Source: Mucilaginibacter rubeus (GTDB lineage: Bacteria > Bacteroidota > Bacteroidia > Sphingobacteriales > Sphingobacteriaceae). Taken from it: 64,000 bases of DNA. Positions 46,827 through 59,224 of the stretch are shown here, piece after piece (within the stretch, counting starts at the first letter, position 1; the number at the start of each line of letters is the position of its first letter). Location: the NCBI RefSeq assembly GCF_014643835.1, contig NZ_BMKD01000001.1, forward strand, positions 62,001 to 126,000. Direction: 5' to 3'. Under the pieces are notes generated by a model, which saw only the letters and a program-made list of their open reading frames with translations, made no database searches and was not told the DNA's origin. Made by a program: the position numbers and the translations under genes.

Positions 46827-48185
46827 ATGAATATTACACAGGAAAAAATTAATGACCTGAACGCAGTTGTTAAAATTAACATCAACCCTGAAGATTACCA
46901 GCCACGTGTTGAAAAAGCTATAAAGGAAAACGCTAAAAAAGCAAAAATTCCTGGTTTTCGCCCGGGCATGGTGCCTGCATCGCACATCAAAAAAATGTAC
47001 GGTAAAAGCATCCTTGTTGATGAGATCAACAACCTGTTACAAGATACTTTAAATAACTATATCGACGAGCAAAAACTGGCCGTATTGGGTCAGCCATTGC
47101 CTGCTGCAGATGATAACAAAGAATACAACTGGGATTTTGCCGATAACTTTGAGTTTAGCTATGAATTAGGTTTAGCTCCTGAGTTCAGCATCGACTTTTC
47201 ATCAAAAGATAAATTAACCCAATACGTAATCAAAGTTGATGACGAAACGCTGGCTTCAAGGATCAAAAACATCCGCCGTAGCTATGGCAAAATGACAAAT
47301 CCTGACGTATCGGCAGATGATGACGTTCTTTACAGCGAATTGGTTCAACTTTCGGCTGATGGTAGTGTTTTTGAGGGTGGGATAACCAACACGGCGTCTG
47401 TACGTTTAGATCAGATCAAAGATGAAGCAATCAAAGCTTCATTGATCGGTTTGAAAAAAGGCGATGTGTTAACATTCGATATTCGTAAAGCTTTTGATAA
47501 CGACGCAGCTAAAATTGCCGGTTTATTGAAAATTGAAGAAGACGATGCAGCTGATTTAAGAGGCGATTTCCAATTAACTGTTAAAAACGTTAACCGTTTA
47601 GAAGAAAGTGACCTTAATCAGGAGTTCTTTGACAAATTATTTGGTGAAGGTACAGTGACTACCGAAGAGGAGTTCACAGCTAAAATTACTGAAGAACTTG
47701 AAAGCATGATGGTTCAGGATGCCGACCGCAAATTGCAGGACGACATGTACAAACTGGCTATCGCTAAAGTTGATTTCGCGCTTCCTGATGAATTTCTGAA
47801 ACGTTGGTTAAAAGCAACTAACGAAAAACTGAGCGATGAGGAATTAGAAGGCGGTTACAACGATTTTGCTCAAAACCTGAAATGGACTTTGATTGAAAAC
47901 AAGATCATTACTGATAACACAATCGAAATTAAATATGAAGATGTGTTTGAATTAGCTAAGATCCGTTTAGATCAGCAGTTCAGGATGTACAGCCCTACTG
48001 CTATCCCTGAGGATCAGTTGGGCCAGTACACTGTTCAGTACCTGCAAAACAAAGACAACGCTAACAAGATATTTGAAGAGGTAAAAGCATTAAAGGTATT
48101 TGACTATATCAAAAATGTGATCACTTTAGATAAGCAGGATATCCTTTACACTGATTTCAGTGCATTGGTATCTGCAGCACAGTAA
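46827..48185 (+). CDS. tig: trigger factor
   Basis: Trigger factor is the ribosome-bound chaperone for nascent chains. The 452-residue protein has the ribosome-binding motif region at its N-terminus (NAVVKININPEDYQPRVEKA, then IPGFRPGMVPASHIKKMYG, equal to the usual GFRxGKxP box with M for K). A divergent FKBP-like domain follows, and a long helical C-terminal domain. The sequence is rather divergent from the proteobacterial protein, as is general in Bacteroidota. clpP and clpX follow, the classic tig-clpP-clpX order, but here separated by terminators and repeats. Confidence 0.95.
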   Translation: MNITQEKINDLNAVVKININPEDYQPRVEKAIKENAKKAKIPGFRPGMVPASHIKKMYGKSILVDEINNLLQDTLNNYIDEQKLAVLGQPLPAADDNKEYNWDFADNFEFSYELGLAPEFSIDFSSKDKLTQYVIKVDDETLASRIKNIRRSYGKMTNPDVSADDDVLYSELVQLSADGSVFEGGITNTASVRLDQIKDEAIKASLIGLKKGDVLTFDIRKAFDNDAAKIAGLLKIEEDDAADLRGDFQLTVKNVNRLEESDLNQEFFDKLFGEGTVTTEEEFTAKITEELESMMVQDADRKLQDDMYKLAIAKVDFALPDEFLKRWLKATNEKLSDEELEGGYNDFAQNLKWTLIENKIITDNTIEIKYEDVFELAKIRLDQQFRMYSPTAIPEDQLGQYTVQYLQNKDNANKIFEEVKALKVFDYIKNVITLDKQDILYTDFSALVSAAQ

Positions 48186-48229
48186 GCTTCTTTCAATCGC
48201 CCTTATTAGGGTAGATTTTATAGTATATT

Positions 48230-48266
48230 CACCAAAAGCAACTCATCGGGTTGCTTTTGGTGTTTT
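48230..48266 (+). terminator. terminator of tig
   Basis: CACCAAAAGCAAC, 7-nt loop, GTTGCTTTTGGTG, then TTTTAT. 13-bp perfect stem. Confidence 0.88.
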
Positions 48267-48302
48267 ATGAGGTCTTTACCGTATCGCATGCTATTTGCTC
48301 TC

Positions 48303-48406
48303 GCGCTCGTTTGTAACGAGTGCGTAACTGGGTTTGCGTTTATAACGCCTCCGGCCCGCGCGATACAATCGCGAAACCACTTTAAGCACTCGTTGTAAAC
48401 GAGCGC
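48303..48406. repeat. REP-like pair, GCGCTCGTTTGTAACGAGTGC type
   Basis: Each half is itself an imperfect hairpin: GCGCTCGTTTGTAACGAGTGC (48303-48323) and its inverse GCACTCGTTGTAAACGAGCGC (48386-48406). A half copy, GTTGCAAACGAGCGCG, lies at 42359-42374. The gap 48186-48621 has no gene. Confidence 0.8.
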
Positions 48407-48464
48407 AAGAAGCATAATCCTGGGTAATAGCCGTAAAATAAACCTTTGTGTAAGTATCATGTAA

Positions 48465-48499
48465 CTTTCGGACTTTACTGACTTTCGGACGTCTGACTT
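48465..48499. repeat. GTCGGAAA family, one arm (copy 4)
   Basis: Units CTTTCGGA, CTTTACTGA, CTTTCGGA, CGTCTGA form only the right-type arm, between tig and clpP. Confidence 0.75.
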
Positions 48500-48621
48500 A
48501 AAAGAGGCCTTATCAAAAAATTACGTAATAAAAACTATCTTGCAAAAAATCTATTGAACTAAAAACTATATTTATCGCGGGTAAGACGCCCGCATTTCCT
48601 AACGAACAACAAACAAAAACC

Positions 48622-49350
48622 ATGAGCAGTAATATCGATAAAAACGAATTCAGAAAATATGCTGTTAAGCATCACCGTATTAACAGCCTTTATGTAGACA
48701 AATATATTGCAGGTGTTGAAAGAGGCAATATGCCAACAGGCGGTATTACAACCGTACCAACCGGCATGACACCATACATTCTTGAAGAACGCCAGCTTAA
48801 CGTACAGGCCATGGACGTGTTTTCACGTTTGATGATGGATCGTATCATTTTCCTTGGCGATGCCATTTATGATAATATTGCAAACATTATCCAGGCTCAA
48901 TTGCTTTTCTTACAATCGGCTGATGCTAAACGTGATATCCAGATCTACATTAACTCGCCAGGTGGTTCGGTTTATGCAGGTTTAGGTATCTATGATACCA
49001 TGCAGTTTATATCAAATGACGTGGCTACCATCTGTACAGGTATGGCGGCGTCAATGGCTGCAGTACTGTTAGTAGCTGGTACTGAAGGTAAAAGGGCAGC
49101 GCTTCCGCATGCAAGGGTGATGATCCACCAGCCATCTGGCGGTGCACAGGGCCAGCAGTCAGATATAGAGATCACTTACCAGGAGATCACCAAATTGAAA
49201 AAAGAGCTGTACCAGATCATTGCAGATCACAGCGGTGCACCTTACCAAAAAGTTTGGGATGCATCTGACCGTGACTACTGGATGATTGCAGAAGAAGCCA
49301 AAGAATTTGGTATGGTTGACGAGATTTTAAGAGGTAACAAAGGAAAGTAA
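48622..49350 (+). CDS. clpP: ATP-dependent Clp protease proteolytic subunit
   Basis: ClpP is the serine protease chamber that works with ClpX and ClpA. The catalytic triad is Ser144 (GMAASMAAVLL), His169 (ARVMIHQPSGG) and Asp218 (SDRDYWM). The 242-residue protein carries a 45-residue N-terminal stretch before the conserved region (MSSNIDKNEFRKYAVKHHR), longer than in E. coli ClpP and typical for Bacteroidota; it may be processed. clpX follows. Confidence 0.97.
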   Translation: MSSNIDKNEFRKYAVKHHRINSLYVDKYIAGVERGNMPTGGITTVPTGMTPYILEERQLNVQAMDVFSRLMMDRIIFLGDAIYDNIANIIQAQLLFLQSADAKRDIQIYINSPGGSVYAGLGIYDTMQFISNDVATICTGMAASMAAVLLVAGTEGKRAALPHARVMIHQPSGGAQGQQSDIEITYQEITKLKKELYQIIADHSGAPYQKVWDASDRDYWMIAEEAKEFGMVDEILRGNKGK

Positions 49351-49356
49351 TCTTGA

Positions 49357-49454
49357 GTCCGCAAGTCCGATAAGTCGGAAAGTCCGGAAGTAAGTATGTT
49401 AAAATCAGAAAGTATCGTTGCTTTCGGACTTTACGGACTTCCCGACTTACGGAC
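49357..49454. repeat. inverted tandem-unit repeat, GTCGGAAA family (copy 5)
   Basis: Left arm (49357-49395): GTCCGCAA, GTCCGATAA, GTCGGAAA, GTCCGGAA. Right arm (49421-49454): CTTTCGGA, CTTTACGGA, CTTCCCGA, CTTACGGAC. It separates clpP from clpX. Confidence 0.87.
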
Positions 49455-49508
49455 AATACTTTGTTTTTTACCACTAATTTTTTAACTTTGAGTAAGAAGA
49501 CAAATCAG

Positions 49509-50747
49509 ATGAATAAAAACAGCAAAGAGATCAGGTGTTCATTTTGCGGTGCCGGTAAACAGGATTCCCTGATGTTAATAGCAGGACTTGATGCACACAT
49601 TTGTGACAAATGTGTGAACCAGGCCAATGAAATATTGGCTGAGGAGTTGAAGGTACGTAAAGTGAAGTCATCGCCTCTGGCGCCGGCCCTGCTTAAGCCA
49701 TCAGAAATGAAGGCACATCTTGATCAGTATGTTATTGGACAGGATGATGCCAAAAAGATACTTTCGGTAGCTGTATATAATCATTATAAACGCTTAAATC
49801 AGCGTATTGATAAAGATGAGGTTGAGATTGAAAAATCAAACATCATCATGGTAGGTGAAACAGGTACGGGCAAAACCCTGCTTGCTAAAACACTCGCCAA
49901 AGTACTTAACGTTCCGTTTTGCATTTGCGACGCTACTGTGCTAACCGAAGCAGGCTATGTAGGGGAGGACGTTGAAAGCATCCTGACCCGCTTACTGCAA
50001 TCGGCCGATTATGATGTAACCCTTGCCGAAAAAGGTATTGTTTACATTGATGAGGTTGATAAAATAGCCCGTAAAAGCGATAATGCTTCTATCACCCGCG
50101 ACGTATCTGGAGAAGGTGTACAACAAGCACTATTGAAGATATTAGAAGGTACCATGGTTAACGTACCACCACAAGGTGGCCGCAAACACCCGGATCAGAA
50201 AATGATCACGGTAAATACCAGTAACATCCTTTTCATTTGCGGAGGCGCCTTTGATGGTATTGAAAGGAAGATCGCCAATCGACTGCGTACCCAAACTGTT
50301 GGTTACAAGTTTAAGCACGATGAGGGCGATATCGATACTAAAAACTTCTATAAGTATATTACACCGCAGGATTTGAAATCATTTGGTTTAATCCCAGAGC
50401 TGATAGGCCGTTTGCCGGTGCTTACCTACCTCAACCCGCTTGATAGGGAAGCATTGCACAATATCCTTACCGAGCCTAAAAACTCATTATTGAAACAGTA
50501 CAAAAAACTGTTTGAATATGAAGGTGTAAAGCTTGATTTTGAAGACGAAGTACTGGAGTTTATTGTTGATAAAGCAATGGAATTTAAACTTGGCGCGAGG
50601 GGCTTACGCTCAATATGCGAAGCTATCATGATTGATGCTATGTTCGAGTTTCCGTCTAAAAAGGATGTGAAACGGTTGAACGTAACATTGGATTACGCAC
50701 GCGAGAAGTTTGAAAAATCGGATCTGAAAAAGTTAAAAGTAGCTTAA
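49509..50747 (+). CDS. clpX: ATP-dependent Clp protease ATP-binding subunit ClpX
   Basis: ClpX unfolds substrates for ClpP. The ATG at 49509 gives 412 residues with the zinc-binding domain (RCSFCGAG and HICDKCV), Walker [11 protein letters not shown], Walker [12 protein letters not shown], the IGF-type loop region near [14 protein letters not shown] and the sensor-2 LGARGLRSI. Normal length. The frame to 49461 runs through a non-conserved leader. It follows clpP after a repeat element. Confidence 0.97.
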
Positions 50748-50838
50748 CGCACAGTATATAAGCAAACACTTATATTTATTAAAAAATAAAGCGCGCCCTG
50801 GTTCTCATACCGGGGTTTGCTGTATAAAAAGAAATCAT

Positions 50839-51696
50839 ATGAACGAAGAATTAAACATTAAAAAGGACGGAGATGCCTTACCACCGCCGGTGAAAGAAGT
50901 GCAATCGCCCATAAAATCAGGATTAAAAACAAAAGAAGCAATTGTTGCTAACTGGTTACCGCGTTATACCGGCCGACCGCTTGAAGCATTTGGAGAGTAT
51001 ATTATCCTCACCAATTTTTCAAAGTATATCCAGCTGTTTTCGCAGTGGAATGATAACGCGCCTATTATGGGGCTTGAAAAACCAATGCAAAGCGTTACAG
51101 CAAACGGTATTACCATTATTAACTTTGGTATGGGCAGTTCGGTTGCGGCTACTGTTATGGACCTGCTCACAGCCATTCACCCCAAAGCTGTCATATTTTT
51201 GGGTAAATGCGGAGGCCTTAAGAAAAAGAACAACGTAGGCGACCTGATCCTGCCGATAGCCGCCATCCGTGGTGAAGGTACATCAAATGACTATTTACCG
51301 CCAGAGGTCCCTGCCTTGCCATCATTCGCACTGCAGAAAGCCATCTCAACTACCATCCGTGATTATTCACGTGATTACTGGACCGGTACCTGCTACACCA
51401 CTAACCGCCGCGTTTGGGAGCATGATAAAGTTTTCAAAAAATACCTGAAAGATCTGCGTGCCATGGCCGTTGATATGGAAACAGCTACTATTTTTACCAC
51501 CGGTTTTGCCAACAAGATTCCTACAGGTGCGTTGCTGTTAGTGTCAGATCAGCCGATGATTCCTGAAGGTGTAAAAACCGCCGAAAGCGATTCGTCAGTA
51601 ACAGAGCAGTTTGTTGAAACACACCTGCACATAGGTATCGAATCGTTAAAGCAGTTGATCAATAACGGGTTAACGGTTAAGCATCTTAAATTTTAG
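50839..51696 (+). CDS. amn: AMP nucleosidase
   Basis: The enzyme splits AMP to adenine and ribose 5-phosphate. This 285-residue protein equals the catalytic part of E. coli Amn and lacks the long N-terminal domain, as is normal in Bacteroidota. The nucleoside phosphorylase fold is shown by GITIINFGMGSSVAATVMDLL, VIFLGKCGGLKKK and the substrate-binding MAVDMETATIF. The C-terminal segment SDQPMIPEGVK is also typical. The stop codon overlaps the first base of a repeat arm. Confidence 0.92.
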   Translation: MNEELNIKKDGDALPPPVKEVQSPIKSGLKTKEAIVANWLPRYTGRPLEAFGEYIILTNFSKYIQLFSQWNDNAPIMGLEKPMQSVTANGITIINFGMGSSVAATVMDLLTAIHPKAVIFLGKCGGLKKKNNVGDLILPIAAIRGEGTSNDYLPPEVPALPSFALQKAISTTIRDYSRDYWTGTCYTTNRRVWEHDKVFKKYLKDLRAMAVDMETATIFTTGFANKIPTGALLLVSDQPMIPEGVKTAESDSSVTEQFVETHLHIGIESLKQLINNGLTVKHLKF

Positions 51697-51834
51697 TCAT
51701 TTTATTCATTGAGTCATTTTGTCATTAGGTCATTTTTTTAATAGCTTAATGAATAAAAGACTTACGAAGTTTTTGAAACTTCGTAAGTCTGACAAAATGC
51801 AAAAATGACTTAATGACCTGATGCCCCAATGACC
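51696..51834. repeat. inverted tandem-unit repeat, GTCATTTT family, with central hairpin
   Basis: Left arm (51696-51739): GTCATTTTATTCATTGA, GTCATTTT, GTCATTAG, GTCATTTTT. Right arm (51793-51834): AAAATGC, AAAAATGAC, TTAATGAC, CTGATGC, CCCAATGACC. Between them a perfect 15-bp hairpin AGACTTACGAAGTTT TTG AAACTTCGTAAGTCT (51758-51790). The left arm starts at the last base of the amn stop codon, and the right arm reaches 25 nt into the convergent gene. Confidence 0.88.
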
Positions 51835-54800
51835 ACTTGTTTCATCCCCTCTCTGCCGTAAAATACCGGAAAATACATCATTTCGGCTTTGGCCGGATTT
51901 AGGGTGTATTTACCGTTGTAACGGGGGATGAGATTTACGGTGAATGTATATTTGCCCTGTTTAAGGCTTCGGCAAAATATGCTTACTTTCTCTTTAAAAT
52001 ATTCGCGGTGTACTTCATTGTTGTCCCATTGCTGCTCCTTACTCTCGTACGAGCATCCGGCAGGTATCGGGATCTCTATCATCACAAAATCAGCATCGCC
52101 GCGGGCTGTTACTTCTGCTTTTAATAATACAGGTTCACCGCCTTTCAGGGTGGTTATTGTTTTTTCCTTGCGCTCAAACCAGGTATTTACTGTAAAATCT
52201 TTACTTACTTTTTCGGGCTTGTTGTTCCAAAACTGCTGATAGCCGGTAATGTATACAGGCAGGCTGCCTGTTTTACTGATACTGATTGTTTTATCAGTTA
52301 GCGTTGCCGAATAAGGGAATTTGTCGATCGTTTTTGTATCGGTGCCTGTAAGCCTGATCTGCGATGGTTGAACCTGTTTATTTTCTGTCAACAGATCTGG
52401 CAGAATAGTTTCCAGTATCAGCGCCGATTCATAAGTATTACGCCAATCTCCAAGACGGCGTTGTTCAAGGAAGTAGCCGCGGATCTTGGTTAATAGCTCG
52501 GGATGCCTGCCTTCGTTTTTGATAATGCGGTAGGCTAATACACTCAACTGTACCGAATTATCAAAAAAGCGATAACCGTCTTCGCCCCAATATAGGTTAC
52601 CAAACATAGTATGTTTGCTTGTGTTGATTAAACTGTCCATTTTTATGGATAGGGCAGATTCCTGCCGCAATAACATCATTCTTAACTTATCATAACCCGA
52701 CAACTTATAGTCGAAGTTTTTTTGTTCCTTAACCTGCTCTTTTTCAATGTCTGTTACATACTTCTGGTAATCAACTTTAGCTTTCAGTTTATGAAGTAAC
52801 TCAAGGCAAAGTATTTTGTCCCTGCGTTTGTAACTTTCAAGCTGAAAGACGAGATAGTCGGTTAATTTTTGTTTATCCAGTTCAACAGCGTAACCCTCTT
52901 TTTGCACATCTATCAATGCTTCTACCACATGCAGGCTAATCCAGAGTTCTTCGTTACTATCCTTCCACCAGCCCCAGGTACCGTTACTTTTGCGGTTTTC
53001 CTGTAGCTTTTTAATTACGTCTTTTATATTTCTCTCGTATTTAAACTCTTCGCCCAAAAACTTTTTAATGTGTCGTTCCATGAGCAGGCCTTTCAATTTT
53101 GAAGCCAGCTGCTCATTGCACAGATACTTGTACTCCCTCAGCTTACGGGTTTCTTCAGTCAACGCAGGCAATACAGAAGCCTCTGCCCGGAAAGTGACAG
53201 GTCCCAAAGCCGGATCAAATTTCATGTTCACTGTGGTATCGCGGTCAAGTGCCTCAAAAACTCCTTTGGTTTCTTTAACACCCTGCGGCATTACCGGGAT
53301 CCTGCGTTGCTCGCCGTCAAAATAGCCGTTATCCCGTTTAATGGTGTATTCAAAAGTGAGGCTGTCGGTAGGATTGGTAGAAGCAGCGGCAGTAGCAGTA
53401 ATGGTAAGTGTGTCAATTTTAGAGTTTTTAACTTCCAGCTCGTCTTGTTTCAAAGTCTGGCCGTTGTATTTAAAAATTCGGGTAAGCTTCGCGGAGGTAT
53501 TGTTGTAGTTCATTACCTTACCAATCAAGTTCATTTCGTCGCCGGCTATGGCAAATTGCGGTGCGACAAAATTTGCGCTTAATGGTTTATATGATTTGAT
53601 ACTGCTTTCGGTAAAGCCGGTTTGCTTGTTGCCCGTTATGCCGATGATAAATGTTCGCCAGTTGGTGATATCATCAGGGTAATTAACCATGAAACTTGCT
53701 TTGCCATGTTCGTCAGTAGTCAGTTTAGGTTGCCAGTAGGCATAATCAGAAAAGTTTTTACGCATGGTTTGCGAACTGCCGGTTTGTGTACTGTCGGCCC
53801 TTTGGCCTCCAGCCAAACCCGGTTTAGCTTTGGTCCGGATCACGATGACGCCATTTGCACCACGCGCACCATATATAGCAGTGGCGGCGGCGTCTTTCAA
53901 TACACTAATTTCTGCAATGTCTTCTTTATTTACGTCAGATAGTTTATCAACAATCTCGCCATCCACCACAATCAGCGGCTGGGCCGACGGTGATGAACTA
54001 ATGCCCCTAATCATGATATTGGCTTCGTTACCTACTGTCAGGCCAGCAAGCCCGCCTTCTAAGGAAGATACGGTTGCTATCGATCCGGTCATTTCCGCTT
54101 TTCGTTGCACGCCATACCCAATAACCACTACTTCCTGCAAGGATTTTGAGCTGGGTTTTAAGACTACCTTGATAGTTGCACCGGGTTGTATGCTTAACTC
54201 CTGTGTTTCGTGCCCTATAAAGCTTACAATGAGTTTGCCGGTTTTGGGTACTTTTAATTTAAAGCGCCCTGCTATGTCAGTTTGCGTACCTGTTGATGAA
54301 CCCTTTACCCTTATGGTTACGCCGGGTACAACCAATTTATCATCGCTGGCGGTAACTATTCCGCTCATCATATCGCCGAAGTTGCCGGTATCAAGGTATT
54401 TATCATTAAACGCTTCTTTTATTTTCAGGGCATCGTTTTCTATTTCCCGGTCACCGTGATTATAGCCGCCCGTCCTGTTATTGATAATGTTGCTGATCCG
54501 GACACCTACCGAATCTTTGCCATGAGTGGGCAGTACCTCAAAGCTGTAAAAATTAGTACCGCCTGTTTTTATGGTTACATTTTCTTTAATATCATAACTA
54601 TCGCCCTTAAGCAAAAATAAAAGCCTGTAGCTGCCGGCGTTTAGGTTGTTAATGTATGTGGTATTGCCGGGATAGATCAATAAAAAGTCCGGGTCATCAT
54701 ATTTATAAACGATCAGGTTTTTAACCAGCAGTTTTTTGCCCTTAGGTTGATCGATGCTCATACTTAGTTTACCTGTTTCGCCGGTGATGGTAGGGTTTAC

Positions 54801-57692
54801 AAAAAGCGATTGCGTGTTGCTGCGCAGGTCAAGATATTGCTGCCAGATACTTTCGGCCTCGGGTTGGGTAAGTACCTGTTGTGTATAATCATCGGCCGGG
54901 CCCTGGTATGACGATAGTGTGGGGTTGAAGGGATAAGTAGTGGGGATACTTTTTTGTTTAATAAGGCCGGGCTCAAACTGAAATGAATAACCTGGTTCGG
55001 CAACAAAACGTCGTGATCCGCTGCCTTGTACATCTAAATTGGCAAAGTTTTCGGCCGACGGACCTATGAGTACGCTGTTGTTCCGGTAACCATAGTTCGG
55101 GTCGGGATTGATCATGAATACCTTTTCGTTTTGGGTAAGGAGGGCCATCTTCCAGCCAAAATTATTGATAACGGTAATCAGGTAACGGTTGATGAGATCG
55201 CATTCATAGGTACTCAATGTATCCAAAACCTTTGTTGAGTGCGCATTATCCGCATTAATGCTGAAGATCAGCTTTTTCGATTCTTGTACATCTACACTAT
55301 CTACCCAAATGTTTTGATGGCTGGTCCTGAACCGGAACATGTGCCTGCCCGGCGATACTGCGAAGCTGTAGCGTTTAAGCTGCTGTGTTTGGTCGAAGTA
55401 CACCGGCCGGTCATCAATATAAAGGATATGTACGGGCAGTACATCGCCGTTTTTAATCACAAAAGGCGCCACCTGGGTTAGCGAGTCTTTGGCGTCTTCT
55501 TCAACCCGGTAAATTTTGTTAGGGTGAGTAAACTGGTAGTAAGCAATACTGTCAAGCCCCATTTCCTTACTCCAGCGCTTCCAGTTGAGCTGTAATGACC
55601 CATCGCCATTTATATTGCCGGTATTAAAACCCATTTTTTGCTTGCGATACGGAAAACCTTTGCCAAGGTAGGGCACATACGGCGCCTTGTAGTCGGCAAA
55701 CTTACTCGTCATTGACCAGGCCGTTAAATCAGCATTGGCTACAGGCTGGCCTTTGGCATCGGTAACCACGATGTCGGTTTTAGCTTGCTGCCCGGGATAA
55801 ACGGACACCGGCTGACGAACGTTGATGGTCAGCAGCTTATCGCGGTACATGATATCGGTGGCTTCTGTTTTGCTTTCGCCTGCCCAGATATAATGCACCT
55901 GAAAGTTTACAAGGTTTTGATCATTGTAAGTACGTACATAAAACAGGTTATTGGCCTGCCCCGCATCAATTAATTTGTTGCCGCCAAATACCGAATACCA
56001 AAAATGGAGGTACCGCGGGTTTTCAACCTTTACAAACAGTGAATCGGCGGTGCGGTAGCCTGATAGCGAGATGTCTGCGCTATTATCTTTTAGGGCAAGA
56101 TCGGCATAAGCGCTGTCTGTTTCAATGTCGTAGCTATCGGCATACGGGTTAATAATGGTTTTTGCCGGGAGCATTACCCTGACCCTGTTTATGATATCAT
56201 ACTTTGCGTTAAGGGTGCTGATGGTAGCCATAGTTTGTATGGCCTTGCCATTGTCAAAGGCGTTACTGATTAGTGTATCACCGTTTAATTTGGCGGTAAT
56301 ACTAAACCGGCTGTACCGATAACTCATATCGTTATTAGCTGATTGCTGTTCATTATTGCTGTTCAGAAATTCTGAATTAATGGTGTAAGTGACATCTGCC
56401 TTAGGAAAGATGGAATCGGGGATAACTAGCCTGGTTTCACCAACCGGGTCAAGCTGTAGCTGGTGTGTCCAAAGCTGGTCGGGCACAAAAGTGTAGCTTT
56501 GCCTGCGCGTGCCGGTGCCACGGGTATTGAATGTAACAGTAACCCTGCCATCCGTAACCGGCAGGTTATTTTCGTCAACTGCTTTTAAATATAATGTAGC
56601 CGGATTTCCGGGCCCGTGTTCTTCTTTATCAACCCTGGTGCTGAACGTAATTGATTTAAGCTCGTATTCTTCATATTTAAACTGGCCCGTCAGAAAAACC
56701 TTGCGTTTGGCTAAAAAGCCCTGATCGTCATCGCCGTCATAATCATCAAGTTTGTATTTTTCGCTCGACGGATCTTCGAGCGAGATGGTATAATCTTCAT
56801 CAAGAGAAAGGTCAAGACTATCTGTGAGGGCGAAACTATATTCATAAGCTCCTTCGCGGTAACTGTTTACTTTGCCGATGATCTTACCGTCATCCTCATA
56901 CCGTTCTTTGAGCCGTACTAAAAGCTGAGTTGTGGTTACAGGTTGTTTTGATTTTTTATTTAGGATGATCGCCTTGAATTTTACCGTATCATGTGGTTTA
57001 TAAATGGCCTTGTTAAAAACCATGAAGCCTTCGTAATTATCTGCGGGCTGATGGCTGTAATATTTATCGTGCCCCTTAAACAGGTTTTTAAAGCGTTTCC
57101 AGGTAGCTTTAAAAAAACTCATATGGCGATACGGATTGTAATGATAATAAGATGAGCGCTGCTGTTTTTTTATAGCGTAGTAATTGGTTACGCCCGCGTA
57201 ATCAACTTTTAGTATGGTATCCCTTTTTGAAGGGTTAGCTATATACAAGCCGGCTTTTGAATCATAAGTAACGGTATGATTGTTAAACTGCACTAAAGCG
57301 TTGTTAATGGCTTTACCTGTCTGATCAACTAAAATAAAGCGGAGGTCATAGTTATTAGCCAGCAGTTTTAAATTGGCCGAGCGGTTTTCGATAAGCGAAT
57401 AGCTTAGCACGTTCTTTTTTGCAGCTACTTTCAAATAGTTACCGGGAGGGAGGGTATTGTTCCATTTATCGTTTGTTTTAAACGAATCAATGGGGTTGTG
57501 TAATATTTGCTCATCAGGTTTTTTACGTGGGTAGCGATAAAATTTAAGCACATCACCATCCGTTATTTTATATATGTAGGTATAATAACTGCTTTGCCGG
57601 CTTGGGGTAAGCGGCTTTTGCCCCAATGCGGCAGTTATACAAAAACTTAAGAAACTAAAAAATAATAACGATTTTTTTATTGGTGCCTGCAT
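51810..57692 (-). CDS. alpha-2-macroglobulin-like protein with embedded TonB-plug module
   Basis: A 1960-residue exported protein (signal peptide residues 1-24, ending AALGQ). Macroglobulin-like domains occupy the first half, including an MG2-type segment near residue 230 (AIYKPHDTVKFKAI). Residues 1115-1185 are CarboxypepD_reg-like (VVPGVTIRVKGSSTGTQ) and lead, via LQEVVVIGYGVQRKAEMTGS (Gln1186 on), into a SusC-type plug (about 1200-1290: IMIRGISSS, PLIVVDGE, ISVLKDAAATAIYGARGANG). The A2M core follows (YWQPKLTTDEHGKASF, NWRTFIIGITGNKQTGF), then a helical thioester-domain-like region with CNEQ (Cys1525-Gln1528) and a C-terminal beta domain. No beta-barrel is present. Bacterial macroglobulins trap proteases; the plug role is unknown. 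The last residues are encoded by a repeat arm. Confidence 0.85.
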   Translation of the reverse strand: MQAPIKKSLLFFSFLSFCITAALGQKPLTPSRQSSYYTYIYKITDGDVLKFYRYPRKKPDEQILHNPIDSFKTNDKWNNTLPPGNYLKVAAKKNVLSYSLIENRSANLKLLANNYDLRFILVDQTGKAINNALVQFNNHTVTYDSKAGLYIANPSKRDTILKVDYAGVTNYYAIKKQQRSSYYHYNPYRHMSFFKATWKRFKNLFKGHDKYYSHQPADNYEGFMVFNKAIYKPHDTVKFKAIILNKKSKQPVTTTQLLVRLKERYEDDGKIIGKVNSYREGAYEYSFALTDSLDLSLDEDYTISLEDPSSEKYKLDDYDGDDDQGFLAKRKVFLTGQFKYEEYELKSITFSTRVDKEEHGPGNPATLYLKAVDENNLPVTDGRVTVTFNTRGTGTRRQSYTFVPDQLWTHQLQLDPVGETRLVIPDSIFPKADVTYTINSEFLNSNNEQQSANNDMSYRYSRFSITAKLNGDTLISNAFDNGKAIQTMATISTLNAKYDIINRVRVMLPAKTIINPYADSYDIETDSAYADLALKDNSADISLSGYRTADSLFVKVENPRYLHFWYSVFGGNKLIDAGQANNLFYVRTYNDQNLVNFQVHYIWAGESKTEATDIMYRDKLLTINVRQPVSVYPGQQAKTDIVVTDAKGQPVANADLTAWSMTSKFADYKAPYVPYLGKGFPYRKQKMGFNTGNINGDGSLQLNWKRWSKEMGLDSIAYYQFTHPNKIYRVEEDAKDSLTQVAPFVIKNGDVLPVHILYIDDRPVYFDQTQQLKRYSFAVSPGRHMFRFRTSHQNIWVDSVDVQESKKLIFSINADNAHSTKVLDTLSTYECDLINRYLITVINNFGWKMALLTQNEKVFMINPDPNYGYRNNSVLIGPSAENFANLDVQGSGSRRFVAEPGYSFQFEPGLIKQKSIPTTYPFNPTLSSYQGPADDYTQQVLTQPEAESIWQQYLDLRSNTQSLFVNPTITGETGKLSMSIDQPKGKKLLVKNLIVYKYDDPDFLLIYPGNTTYINNLNAGSYRLLFLLKGDSYDIKENVTIKTGGTNFYSFEVLPTHGKDSVGVRISNIINNRTGGYNHGDREIENDALKIKEAFNDKYLDTGNFGDMMSGIVTASDDKLVVPGVTIRVKGSSTGTQTDIAGRFKLKVPKTGKLIVSFIGHETQELSIQPGATIKVVLKPSSKSLQEVVVIGYGVQRKAEMTGSIATVSSLEGGLAGLTVGNEANIMIRGISSSPSAQPLIVVDGEIVDKLSDVNKEDIAEISVLKDAAATAIYGARGANGVIVIRTKAKPGLAGGQRADSTQTGSSQTMRKNFSDYAYWQPKLTTDEHGKASFMVNYPDDITNWRTFIIGITGNKQTGFTESSIKSYKPLSANFVAPQFAIAGDEMNLIGKVMNYNNTSAKLTRIFKYNGQTLKQDELEVKNSKIDTLTITATAAASTNPTDSLTFEYTIKRDNGYFDGEQRRIPVMPQGVKETKGVFEALDRDTTVNMKFDPALGPVTFRAEASVLPALTEETRKLREYKYLCNEQLASKLKGLLMERHIKKFLGEEFKYERNIKDVIKKLQENRKSNGTWGWWKDSNEELWISLHVVEALIDVQKEGYAVELDKQKLTDYLVFQLESYKRRDKILCLELLHKLKAKVDYQKYVTDIEKEQVKEQKNFDYKLSGYDKLRMMLLRQESALSIKMDSLINTSKHTMFGNLYWGEDGYRFFDNSVQLSVLAYRIIKNEGRHPELLTKIRGYFLEQRRLGDWRNTYESALILETILPDLLTENKQVQPSQIRLTGTDTKTIDKFPYSATLTDKTISISKTGSLPVYITGYQQFWNNKPEKVSKDFTVNTWFERKEKTITTLKGGEPVLLKAEVTARGDADFVMIEIPIPAGCSYESKEQQWDNNEVHREYFKEKVSIFCRSLKQGKYTFTVNLIPRYNGKYTLNPAKAEMMYFPVFYGREGMKQVVIGASGH

Positions 57693-57862: not shown

Positions 57863-59224
57863 ATGTGGTACAATAACATACTCGATACCATTGGCAACAC
57901 GCCGCTGGTAAAACTGAATAAAGTAGCAAAAGACATCCCTGCTACCGTTTTAGCCAAGATAGAGACAACCAACCCCGGCAACTCCATAAAAGACCGTATG
58001 GCCCTTAAAATGATTGAGGACGCCGAAAAAAGCGGAAAACTTAAGCCCGGCGGAACCATTATTGAAGGCACATCGGGCAATACCGGTATGGGCCTGGCCA
58101 TTGCAGCTGTGATAAAAGGCTACAAGTGTATTTTTACCAGCACCGATAAACAATCAAAAGAAAAATTTGATGCATTGCGCGCCTTTGGTGCGGAGGTAAT
58201 TGTTTGCCCAACCAATGTGGAGCCTGAAGACCCGCGATCATACTATTCGGTATCATCACGCCTGGAGCGGGAAGTCCCTAACTCATGGAAGCCCAATCAG
58301 TATGATAACCTGAGCAACTCGCAGGCGCACTATGAAAGTACCGGTCCCGAAATTTGGGAGCAAACTGAGGGCAAGATCACGCACCTTATTGCCGGTGTTG
58401 GCACCGGTGGTACTATCTCGGGCATCGCCCGTTATCTGAAAGAGAAGAACCCTGCTATCCAGGTTTTGGGTATTGACACTTACGGGTCTGTATTTAAAAA
58501 ATACAAAGAGACAGGTGTTTTTGATAAAAACGAGATCTATCCATATATCACCGAAGGTATCGGCGAAGATTTCCTACCGCAAAACGTTGATTTTAGCCTG
58601 ATAGATCATTTTGAGAAGGTGACAGATAAGGACGCTGCCCTCATGACCCGCGAGATTGCACGTAAAGAAGGGATCTTCTCAGGTAACTCAACCGGCTCAG
58701 CCGTGGCGGGTTTGCTGCAGATGAAGGATAAGTTTAAAGAGGGCGACGTGGTGGTGATCATCTTCCCGGACCATGGTACCCGCTATCTTGGAAAAATGTA
58801 TAATGACGACTGGCTGCGCGACCGCGGTTTCCTGAAAGACGAAAAACTAACCGCCCGCGATATCATCAGCAAAAAAGAGGTGCAGGAGATCATCACTATT
58901 GATTGTGAGAAGAGCGTGCTGGAAGCCATCAACACCATTAAATCGCTCAATATATCTCAGATCCCGGTTACGCAAAAAGGCATGGTAATTGGAAAGATCA
59001 CCGAAAGCGATATCCTTGATTCGCTAATCGAAAACCCTTCGATCAAATCGCAGCCGATCAAAAACATTACCACTGCACCGTTCCCGTTTGTTGATCTGAA
59101 CACTTCGATAGACAGGATCTCGGCCATGATCAATAAAGATAACATTGCTGTGTTGGTTGAAGACGGGCAGGGTAAAATCGAGATTATTACCCAGTATGAT
59201 ATTATAAACGCCATTTCTGCCTGA
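57863..59224 (+). CDS. cystathionine beta-synthase-like PLP enzyme with CBS domains
   Basis: The 453-residue protein joins a cysteine synthase-type PLP domain (residues 1-330) with two CBS domains (about 335-453). The PLP lysine is Lys43 in NPGNSIKDRMA; the substrate loop is EGTSGNTGMGLA, and the phosphate-binding GVGTGGTISG follows. The substrate-related stretch SRLEREVPNSWKPNQYDN is typical of cystathionine beta-synthase rather than O-acetylserine sulfhydrylase. The CBS repeats (VLEAINTIKSLNISQIPV; SIDRISAMINKDNIAVLV) likely bind adenosyl ligands. It could act in transsulfuration or in cysteine synthesis. No haem-binding domain. Confidence 0.93.
   Translation: MWYNNILDTIGNTPLVKLNKVAKDIPATVLAKIETTNPGNSIKDRMALKMIEDAEKSGKLKPGGTIIEGTSGNTGMGLAIAAVIKGYKCIFTSTDKQSKEKFDALRAFGAEVIVCPTNVEPEDPRSYYSVSSRLEREVPNSWKPNQYDNLSNSQAHYESTGPEIWEQTEGKITHLIAGVGTGGTISGIARYLKEKNPAIQVLGIDTYGSVFKKYKETGVFDKNEIYPYITEGIGEDFLPQNVDFSLIDHFEKVTDKDAALMTREIARKEGIFSGNSTGSAVAGLLQMKDKFKEGDVVVIIFPDHGTRYLGKMYNDDWLRDRGFLKDEKLTARDIISKKEVQEIITIDCEKSVLEAINTIKSLNISQIPVTQKGMVIGKITESDILDSLIENPSIKSQPIKNITTAPFPFVDLNTSIDRISAMINKDNIAVLVEDGQGKIEIITQYDIINAISA

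Follow-up and report, generated by a model that had tools for sequence, protein, structure and literature searches.

We analysed a window of 64,000 nucleotides from Mucilaginibacter rubeus (contig NZ_BMKD01000001.1, positions 62,001 to 126,000), in which positions 51810-57692 hold a gene for a protein of the alpha-2-macroglobulin (A2M) family. The gene is a single uninterrupted reading frame of 1960 codons plus a stop, as claimed in a preliminary description of this DNA, and has orthologues; it lies on the minus strand, which that description had not stated. Judged from its sequence, the product is a periplasmic type-I (CNEQ) A2M with the NTE domain, TonB box and half plug of a SusC transporter in its bait slot. 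It starts with what looks by eye like an ordinary signal peptide of the signal peptidase I type (residues 1-24, AALG-Q; 57621-57692), and such a peptide without a lipobox fits a periplasmic location. A lipobox-like match is absent from 53 of 54 N termini in family A, the set of related proteins compared below, and the only match (L083) falls within a hydrophobic stretch.

Upstream of the transporter-like module, an MG2-like macroglobulin (MG) domain at residues 222-291 (56820-57029) is matched by Pfam below its cut-off (26.9 of 32.8 bits); apart from this domain and the C-terminal bMG10 described below, Pfam lists no MG domains. The module opens with a SusC-type NTE (CarboxypepD_reg) domain at residues 1106-1184 (54141-54377), based on a Pfam match to CarbopepD_reg_2 (PF13715) at 1110-1190 (57 bits, cut-off 32). 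It continues with a Plug match (PF07715) at 1212-1282 (35 bits, cut-off 24) that covers profile positions 29-107 of 107. The NCBIfam model TIGR04056 (SusC/RagA) matches residues 1109-1289 with an E value of 3.8e-54, the SusC signature TIGR04057 matches 1258-1288 over its cut-off, and PDB matches for the module are RagA over 1110-1310 and a SusC over 1110-1295. Downstream, Pfam places the A2M domain (PF00207) at 1318-1402 (56.4 bits, cut-off 21), and in the PDB residues 1298-1398 match human A2M and residues 1460-1885 match E. coli YfhM. A thioester (TED-like) region at residues 1501-1740 (52473-53192; limits by eye) contains the motif CNEQ at 1525-1528 (53109-53120), which aligns to CLEQ of YfhM and is identical in 55 of 55 family-A proteins. 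The C-terminal macroglobulin domain bMG10 (residues 1834-1942; 51867-52193) scores 60 bits against a cut-off of 26 (Pfam). These matches bear out the SusC-type N-terminal module, the A2M core and the CNEQ thioester-like domain named in the preliminary description, and its claim that the plug has no barrel to close also holds. TIGR04056 is matched from model position 3 only to 205 of 981, the chain runs on into the A2M domains, and the protein has neither the barrel nor the full-length TIGR04056 score of a SusC (184 bits, cut-off 368).

Within and after the module, the order is NTE, TonB box, short plug, a hypervariable linker (residues 1289-1310; 53763-53828), the invariant R1311, and, beginning with this arginine, a conserved segment of the form R-x-N-F-S-D-Y-A-x-W-Q-P. 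The NFSDYAxWQP stretch aligns with the bait end and alpha'NT of human A2M, in which the bait presumably covers residues about 690-728. This alpha'NT-like segment, starting at R1311, and the A2M domain that follows it take up residues 1311-1402 (53487-53762). The linker is the candidate scissile bait: its median pairwise identity in family A is 0.16, where the plug reaches 0.47 and the A2M segment 0.55, its median ratio of nonsynonymous to synonymous substitution rates (dN/dS) is the highest among the segments (0.32), and AlphaFold2 gives a low predicted local distance difference test score (pLDDT) from residue 1290 onward. In the relatives L141 (over the cut-off) and L118, L137 and L131 (below it), the bait-region domain PF07703 ends before the corresponding slot. 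Since the linker, R1311 and the human-aligned stretch come next, and PF07703 of these relatives ends before the slot, the module occupies the bait slot, the position first proposed for it, akin to the ANA domain in complement proteins.

The plug is retained by halves. Its N-half (residues 1195-1228; 54009-54110) is shortened and relaxed, and structure prediction gives a weak plug model with pLDDT below 50 for residues 1192-1234, so this half is predicted to be disordered. The C-half (residues 1229-1288; 53829-54008) retains most SusC-conserved columns, including IRG, VDG and VLKDAAATAIYGARGANGV, and carries the TIGR04057 signature. The plug identity assigned earlier stands for the C-half, the part that is kept, and the domain as a whole appears to be incomplete. 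In VIA-align, rows mainly span the NTE (model residues 18-99), and absent plug chains there are uninformative on the half plug. Separate A2M groups show a similar shortening, with a GKVAG-type stretch joined almost directly to IRG, in L091, L106, L112, L114 and L116 of family A and in L214 and L217 outside it; L240 has two IRG motifs.

Between the NTE and the plug lies a TonB box, LQEVVVIGYG (residues 1185-1194; 54111-54140). The preliminary description overlooked both this box and the recurrence of such motifs in Bacteroidota A2M bait regions. By sequence comparison the box matches the experimentally tested Ton box of Bt1763, DEVVVTG; in the available part of PMC7782687, deletion of that box or its change to alanine is reported to cause growth defects like those of a strain without SusD. 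Of the box columns, 8 reach a conservation of at least 0.7 in SusC (n = 41), and all 8 do so in the 54 family-A modules as well. In hits gathered by a search that selects for the box core, the conservation of that core partly reflects the selection. The neighbouring residues Q1196 and D1200 are relaxed in family A relative to SusC. On the core tree (54 proteins, no position mask), the box is the slowest 10-residue window of the module, ranking first of 148 with 7.1 changes per site, and its flanks are variable, residues 1183-1184 and 1195-1201 changing 17-30 times. The box is under strong constraint.

Purifying selection acts on the module as a whole, more loosely than elsewhere in the protein. 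Median dN/dS is 0.18 for the NTE and 0.15 for the TonB box plus plug, with other segments apart from the linker at 0.05-0.08; these medians come from 21-42 of the 45 pairs among 10 sequences, the remaining pairs being saturated at synonymous sites. Bait-cassette exchange by recombination between A2M alleles is likely, because the module and MG7 (L121 13253-13951 and following) are about twice as diverged at synonymous sites as the other large segments between the window's gene and L121, while the L121 module groups with other A2M modules. The module tree has few columns and is poorly resolved: the rows labelled A2M_A need 12 changes and the starred branches force only 1, so the tree accommodates one capture or repeated capture of A2M plugs. 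L061, which is cut by its locus, was excluded from identity values and trees, and L093 from alignment A2 and the module tree. Composition does not support a recent foreign insert, with a module GC content of 0.468 versus 0.413-0.454 for three other parts and a third-position GC content of 0.438 versus 0.440-0.519.

By its distribution the A2M-plug fusion is old. The nearest genome encodes the same protein at 97% identity, and the plug is present in 54 of 55 distinct family-A proteins, the exception being L093, in which it has decayed. An assembly chimaera of two genes, which the preliminary description had named as a way to undo its reading, is ruled out because the same fusion recurs across many genomes. 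The phmmer search that detected the plug returned no NTE for 5 of the 55 proteins (L101, L113, L115, L116 and L117); in L116 an eroded NTE-like stretch is nonetheless visible in the alignment A2 blocks. Among named records, M. gossypii gives the best match, its best segment being 93% identical, and full-length relatives occur in Mucilaginibacter, Pararcticibacter and Rufibacter; other genomes add further genera of the same family. More widely, the A2M core is matched in 193 of 300 genomes of the order and an A2M domain in 167 of 395 genomes of the phylum sample; hidden Markov models built for this analysis matched the NTE or plug in 9 of 60 hand-chosen phylum loci.

We surveyed bait windows at 139 loci, hand-chosen from among the matches listed for family spread and, in the case of the final 60, chiefly for long frames; two of the genomes, G035 and G038, were already known to match over the module. 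Because of this hand-picking the survey counts do not express prevalence. The anchor was present in 134 survey proteins, and 119 remained after removal of near-copies. Motif matrices were made from 15 SusC proteins of the genus, and the threshold for each motif was set to let through 7 of 685 control windows taken from the same proteins. Bait windows over threshold numbered 42 of 119 for the TonB box (14 of 595 shuffled baits), 33 for GKVAGV (10 of 595), 33 for IRG (6 of 595), 20 for VDG (16 of 595) and 18 for the plug C-half (8 of 595). At least one motif was found in 43 of the 101 windows scored without the C-half, and the TonB box in 27 of them, or 25 after removing L239 and L139; L239 is scored without the C-half only because its bait window cuts that part off. 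In seven of the 43 (L132, L139, L145, L149, L156, L179 and L077) the matches were taken as chance, as all lie before position 110 of the bait window. TonB boxes with little after them occur in L160, L076 and L170 (the last outside the 119), and the SusC motif order is reversed or mixed in L065, L070, L071, L118, L216, L224 and L244.

A scan over 697 SusC columns, mapped from 41 SusC fragments that cover the first part of the barrel, found that enrichment spans NTE to plug and ends at the barrel, its maximum being the TonB box with 44 of 119 bait windows where 0.6 would be expected. The 88 informative NTE-plug windows average 19.7 matches, compared with 1.4 for the 77 informative barrel windows (maximum 9, expected 0.59); one low-information barrel window has 15. 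With 10 rows that carry other motifs omitted, the core tree requires 18 or more switches between presence and absence of a TonB box or plug, and a 19-row clade with mostly glycine-rich baits has neither once matches before position 110 are discounted. All 8 same-genus genomes checked encode a second A2M of about 1870 residues, and neither TonB-box nor plug motifs exceed the threshold in the bait window of that protein. The bait slot of L134 (2904-3698) carries CarboxypepD_reg and a sub-threshold Plug match that by eye resembles another receptor family. This recurrence of transporter pieces in bait slots suggests traps that are wired to TonB-dependent transporters or imitate them. Also by eye, the bait slots of L147, which has no match in Pfam, and of L137, in which no plug is matched, contain material that resembles the plugs of other TonB-dependent receptors. 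L148, another Bacteroidota A2M, has a plug-like match of 28 bits at residues 307-376, which lies outside the bait slot, in the N-terminal macroglobulin region.

The sequence establishes the domain architecture and its conservation, the presence of a thioester motif, the hypervariability of the linker and a strong constraint on the TonB box. We tentatively favour the reading that the protein is a protease trap with a TonB-docking module in its bait slot; the near-fixed TonB box between variable flanks speaks for it, as do the TonB boxes in bait windows scored without the C-half. The C-terminal domain of a TonB protein would pair with the box of the trap as it does with that of SusC. Through this pairing the trap would be tethered to the TonB/ExbBD complex beneath the outer membrane, at the entry site of TonB-dependent cargo. 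An incoming protease would then cut at residues 1195-1228 or 1289-1310, the stretches on either side of the half plug that are predicted to be disordered; the alpha'NT segment would retract, and the CNEQ thioester would capture the protease. TonB may in addition mask or pull the bait domain and so set the sensitivity of the trap. We infer the trapping steps because the motifs of the protein match the general A2M scheme, in which, according to the available parts of PMC4498604 and PMC5764988, bait cleavage is followed by covalent capture of the protease through the thioester, and in which bait retraction is described as the trigger (PMC9352918, in part). A wider version, in which many Bacteroidota thioester-type traps are TonB-coupled and the proton-motive force docks, arms or mechanically unfolds the bait through TonB, seems to us doubtful.

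Several results weigh against TonB docking. PF07703 is unlisted by Pfam for the window's protein up to an E value of 1. The NTE and plug change at two to four times the rate of the other segments, and the TonB box is not unique in its constraint, because the C-terminal signature of the plug (1274-1283) is as slow at 7.2 changes per site and 204 of 1695 windows across the whole protein are slower than the box. The box could have a structural role. Plug motifs persist in some A2Ms that have no TonB box, so that docking cannot fully explain the plug material in bait slots: the C-half stands without a box in 3 of 18 windows over threshold (L069, L075 and L213), and other plug motifs stand without box or C-half in L080, L195, L203, L210, L219 and L244. 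The third A2M of G032, L280, bears a thioester and has no motif over threshold. By eye, none of the genes next to the A2M gene in the window, L121, L127 and L128 was recognised as TonB or ExbB.

The mixture of other plug motifs, some alongside a TonB box and some in its absence, together with the equally slow plug signature, favours a different function for the same material. The module could be a decoy that imitates the periplasm-exposed N termini of the cell's numerous TonB-dependent transporters and lures their attackers, TonB playing no part. The exposed bait suggested in the preliminary description thus survives as a live rival, ranked behind TonB docking as an explanation and in our view somewhat unlikely. 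It would account for the enrichment of all kinds of SusC motif, beyond the TonB box, across the 119 bait windows, for the scrambled order in seven of them, for the fall to near background in the examined part of the barrel, and for the material of L134 that by eye resembles another receptor family. A decoy, however, needs no near-fixed TonB box amid hypervariable flanks, and the SusC-conserved residues right after the box are relaxed.

Repeated gain and loss of the TonB box and plug favours a slot that tolerates inserts. Common soluble transporter front ends would be captured there repeatedly as inert, partnerless spacers that decay or are refreshed by recombination, an explanation that we consider unlikely. 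Full, partial and decayed forms of the module exist, including the lost plug of L093, the doubled synonymous divergence in L121 is a sign of recombination between alleles, and the module tree is compatible with one origin or several. Human A2M, as described in the available part of PMC9352918, still works with its bait replaced by Gly/Ser. A mere spacer is nevertheless at odds with purifying selection on the module and with the near-fixed TonB box and plug signature; barrel fragments are also scarce, although selection would tend to remove barrel strands from a soluble protein in any case.

The earlier suggestion that the plug anchors the trap in an outer-membrane barrel or SusC complex is unsupported and highly improbable: C-half residues are kept at the SusC level, yet the N-half is eroded and predicted to be disordered, other A2M baits carry fragmentary or scrambled plugs, and SusC barrels carry plugs of their own. 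TonB docking, decoy and spacer are mutually compatible.

The genes at 46827-51696 and 57863-59224 of the window encode what we take, by eye, to be trigger factor, ClpP, ClpX, AMP-nucleosidase-like and cystathionine beta-synthase-like proteins. The same set flanks the gene in L121, and the neighbours in L127 and L128 differ; no common operon partner was recognised across genera in these four loci, inspected by eye outside any family search. Family-A A2M genes also occur in tandem as two adjoining copies, L061/L101 and L062 (G184 and G294), G294 having a third fragment.

TonB is known for powering transporters. Should it bind the box in the bait slot, it would also serve a periplasmic defence protein, and anti-protease defence in the periplasm would be physically linked to the nutrient-import machinery. 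Should it have no role, recurrent transporter front ends at the bait would represent a natural form of bait design by mimicry or capture. Among the titles and abstract starts of the open literature searched (subscription papers and preprints being outside this scope), no fusion of A2M and TonB plug is described, and the bait-design view of A2M evolution found no match. A conserved TonB box in the bait slot of a trap makes TonB binding directly and cheaply testable.

Among known systems, the protein is closest in plan to E. coli ECAM/YfhM and Salmonella Sa-A2M, with which it shares a CXEQ thioester, A2M and C-terminal MG domains, and a bait before the alpha'NT/A2M segment. It differs from both in carrying a SusC front end in the bait slot and in that no pbpC was recognised next to the gene (by eye, in the window, L121, L127 and L128). 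Unlike ECAM, which is described as anchored in the inner membrane, it has no lipobox. Roles of bacterial macroglobulins are themselves proposed rather than settled, according to the available parts of PMC4498604 and PMC5764988. The second same-genus A2M is like the type-II MagD of Pseudomonas aeruginosa in having no CXEQ by pattern within the 1078-1081 residues covered (8 of 8 genomes); the window's protein, unlike that second A2M, has CNEQ. The ANA domain of complement differs in fold, is set free when it is cleaved and lacks a TonB box. The likeness to complement C3, C4 and C5, in which, according to the available part of PMC9352918, ANA is a designated susceptible domain that replaces the bait region, is positional only; C5 weakly matches the same A2M segment (E 0.35). 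With SusC/RagA proteins such as Bt1763 and RagA, the module shares NTE, TonB box and plug in the same order, and most of its matches to SusC-sized frames of the genus are at about 40-52% identity. The NTE of SusC, whose function is termed unknown in the available part of PMC7782687, is found here with a TonB box and a plug eroded in its N-half, inside an A2M and with no barrel to follow.

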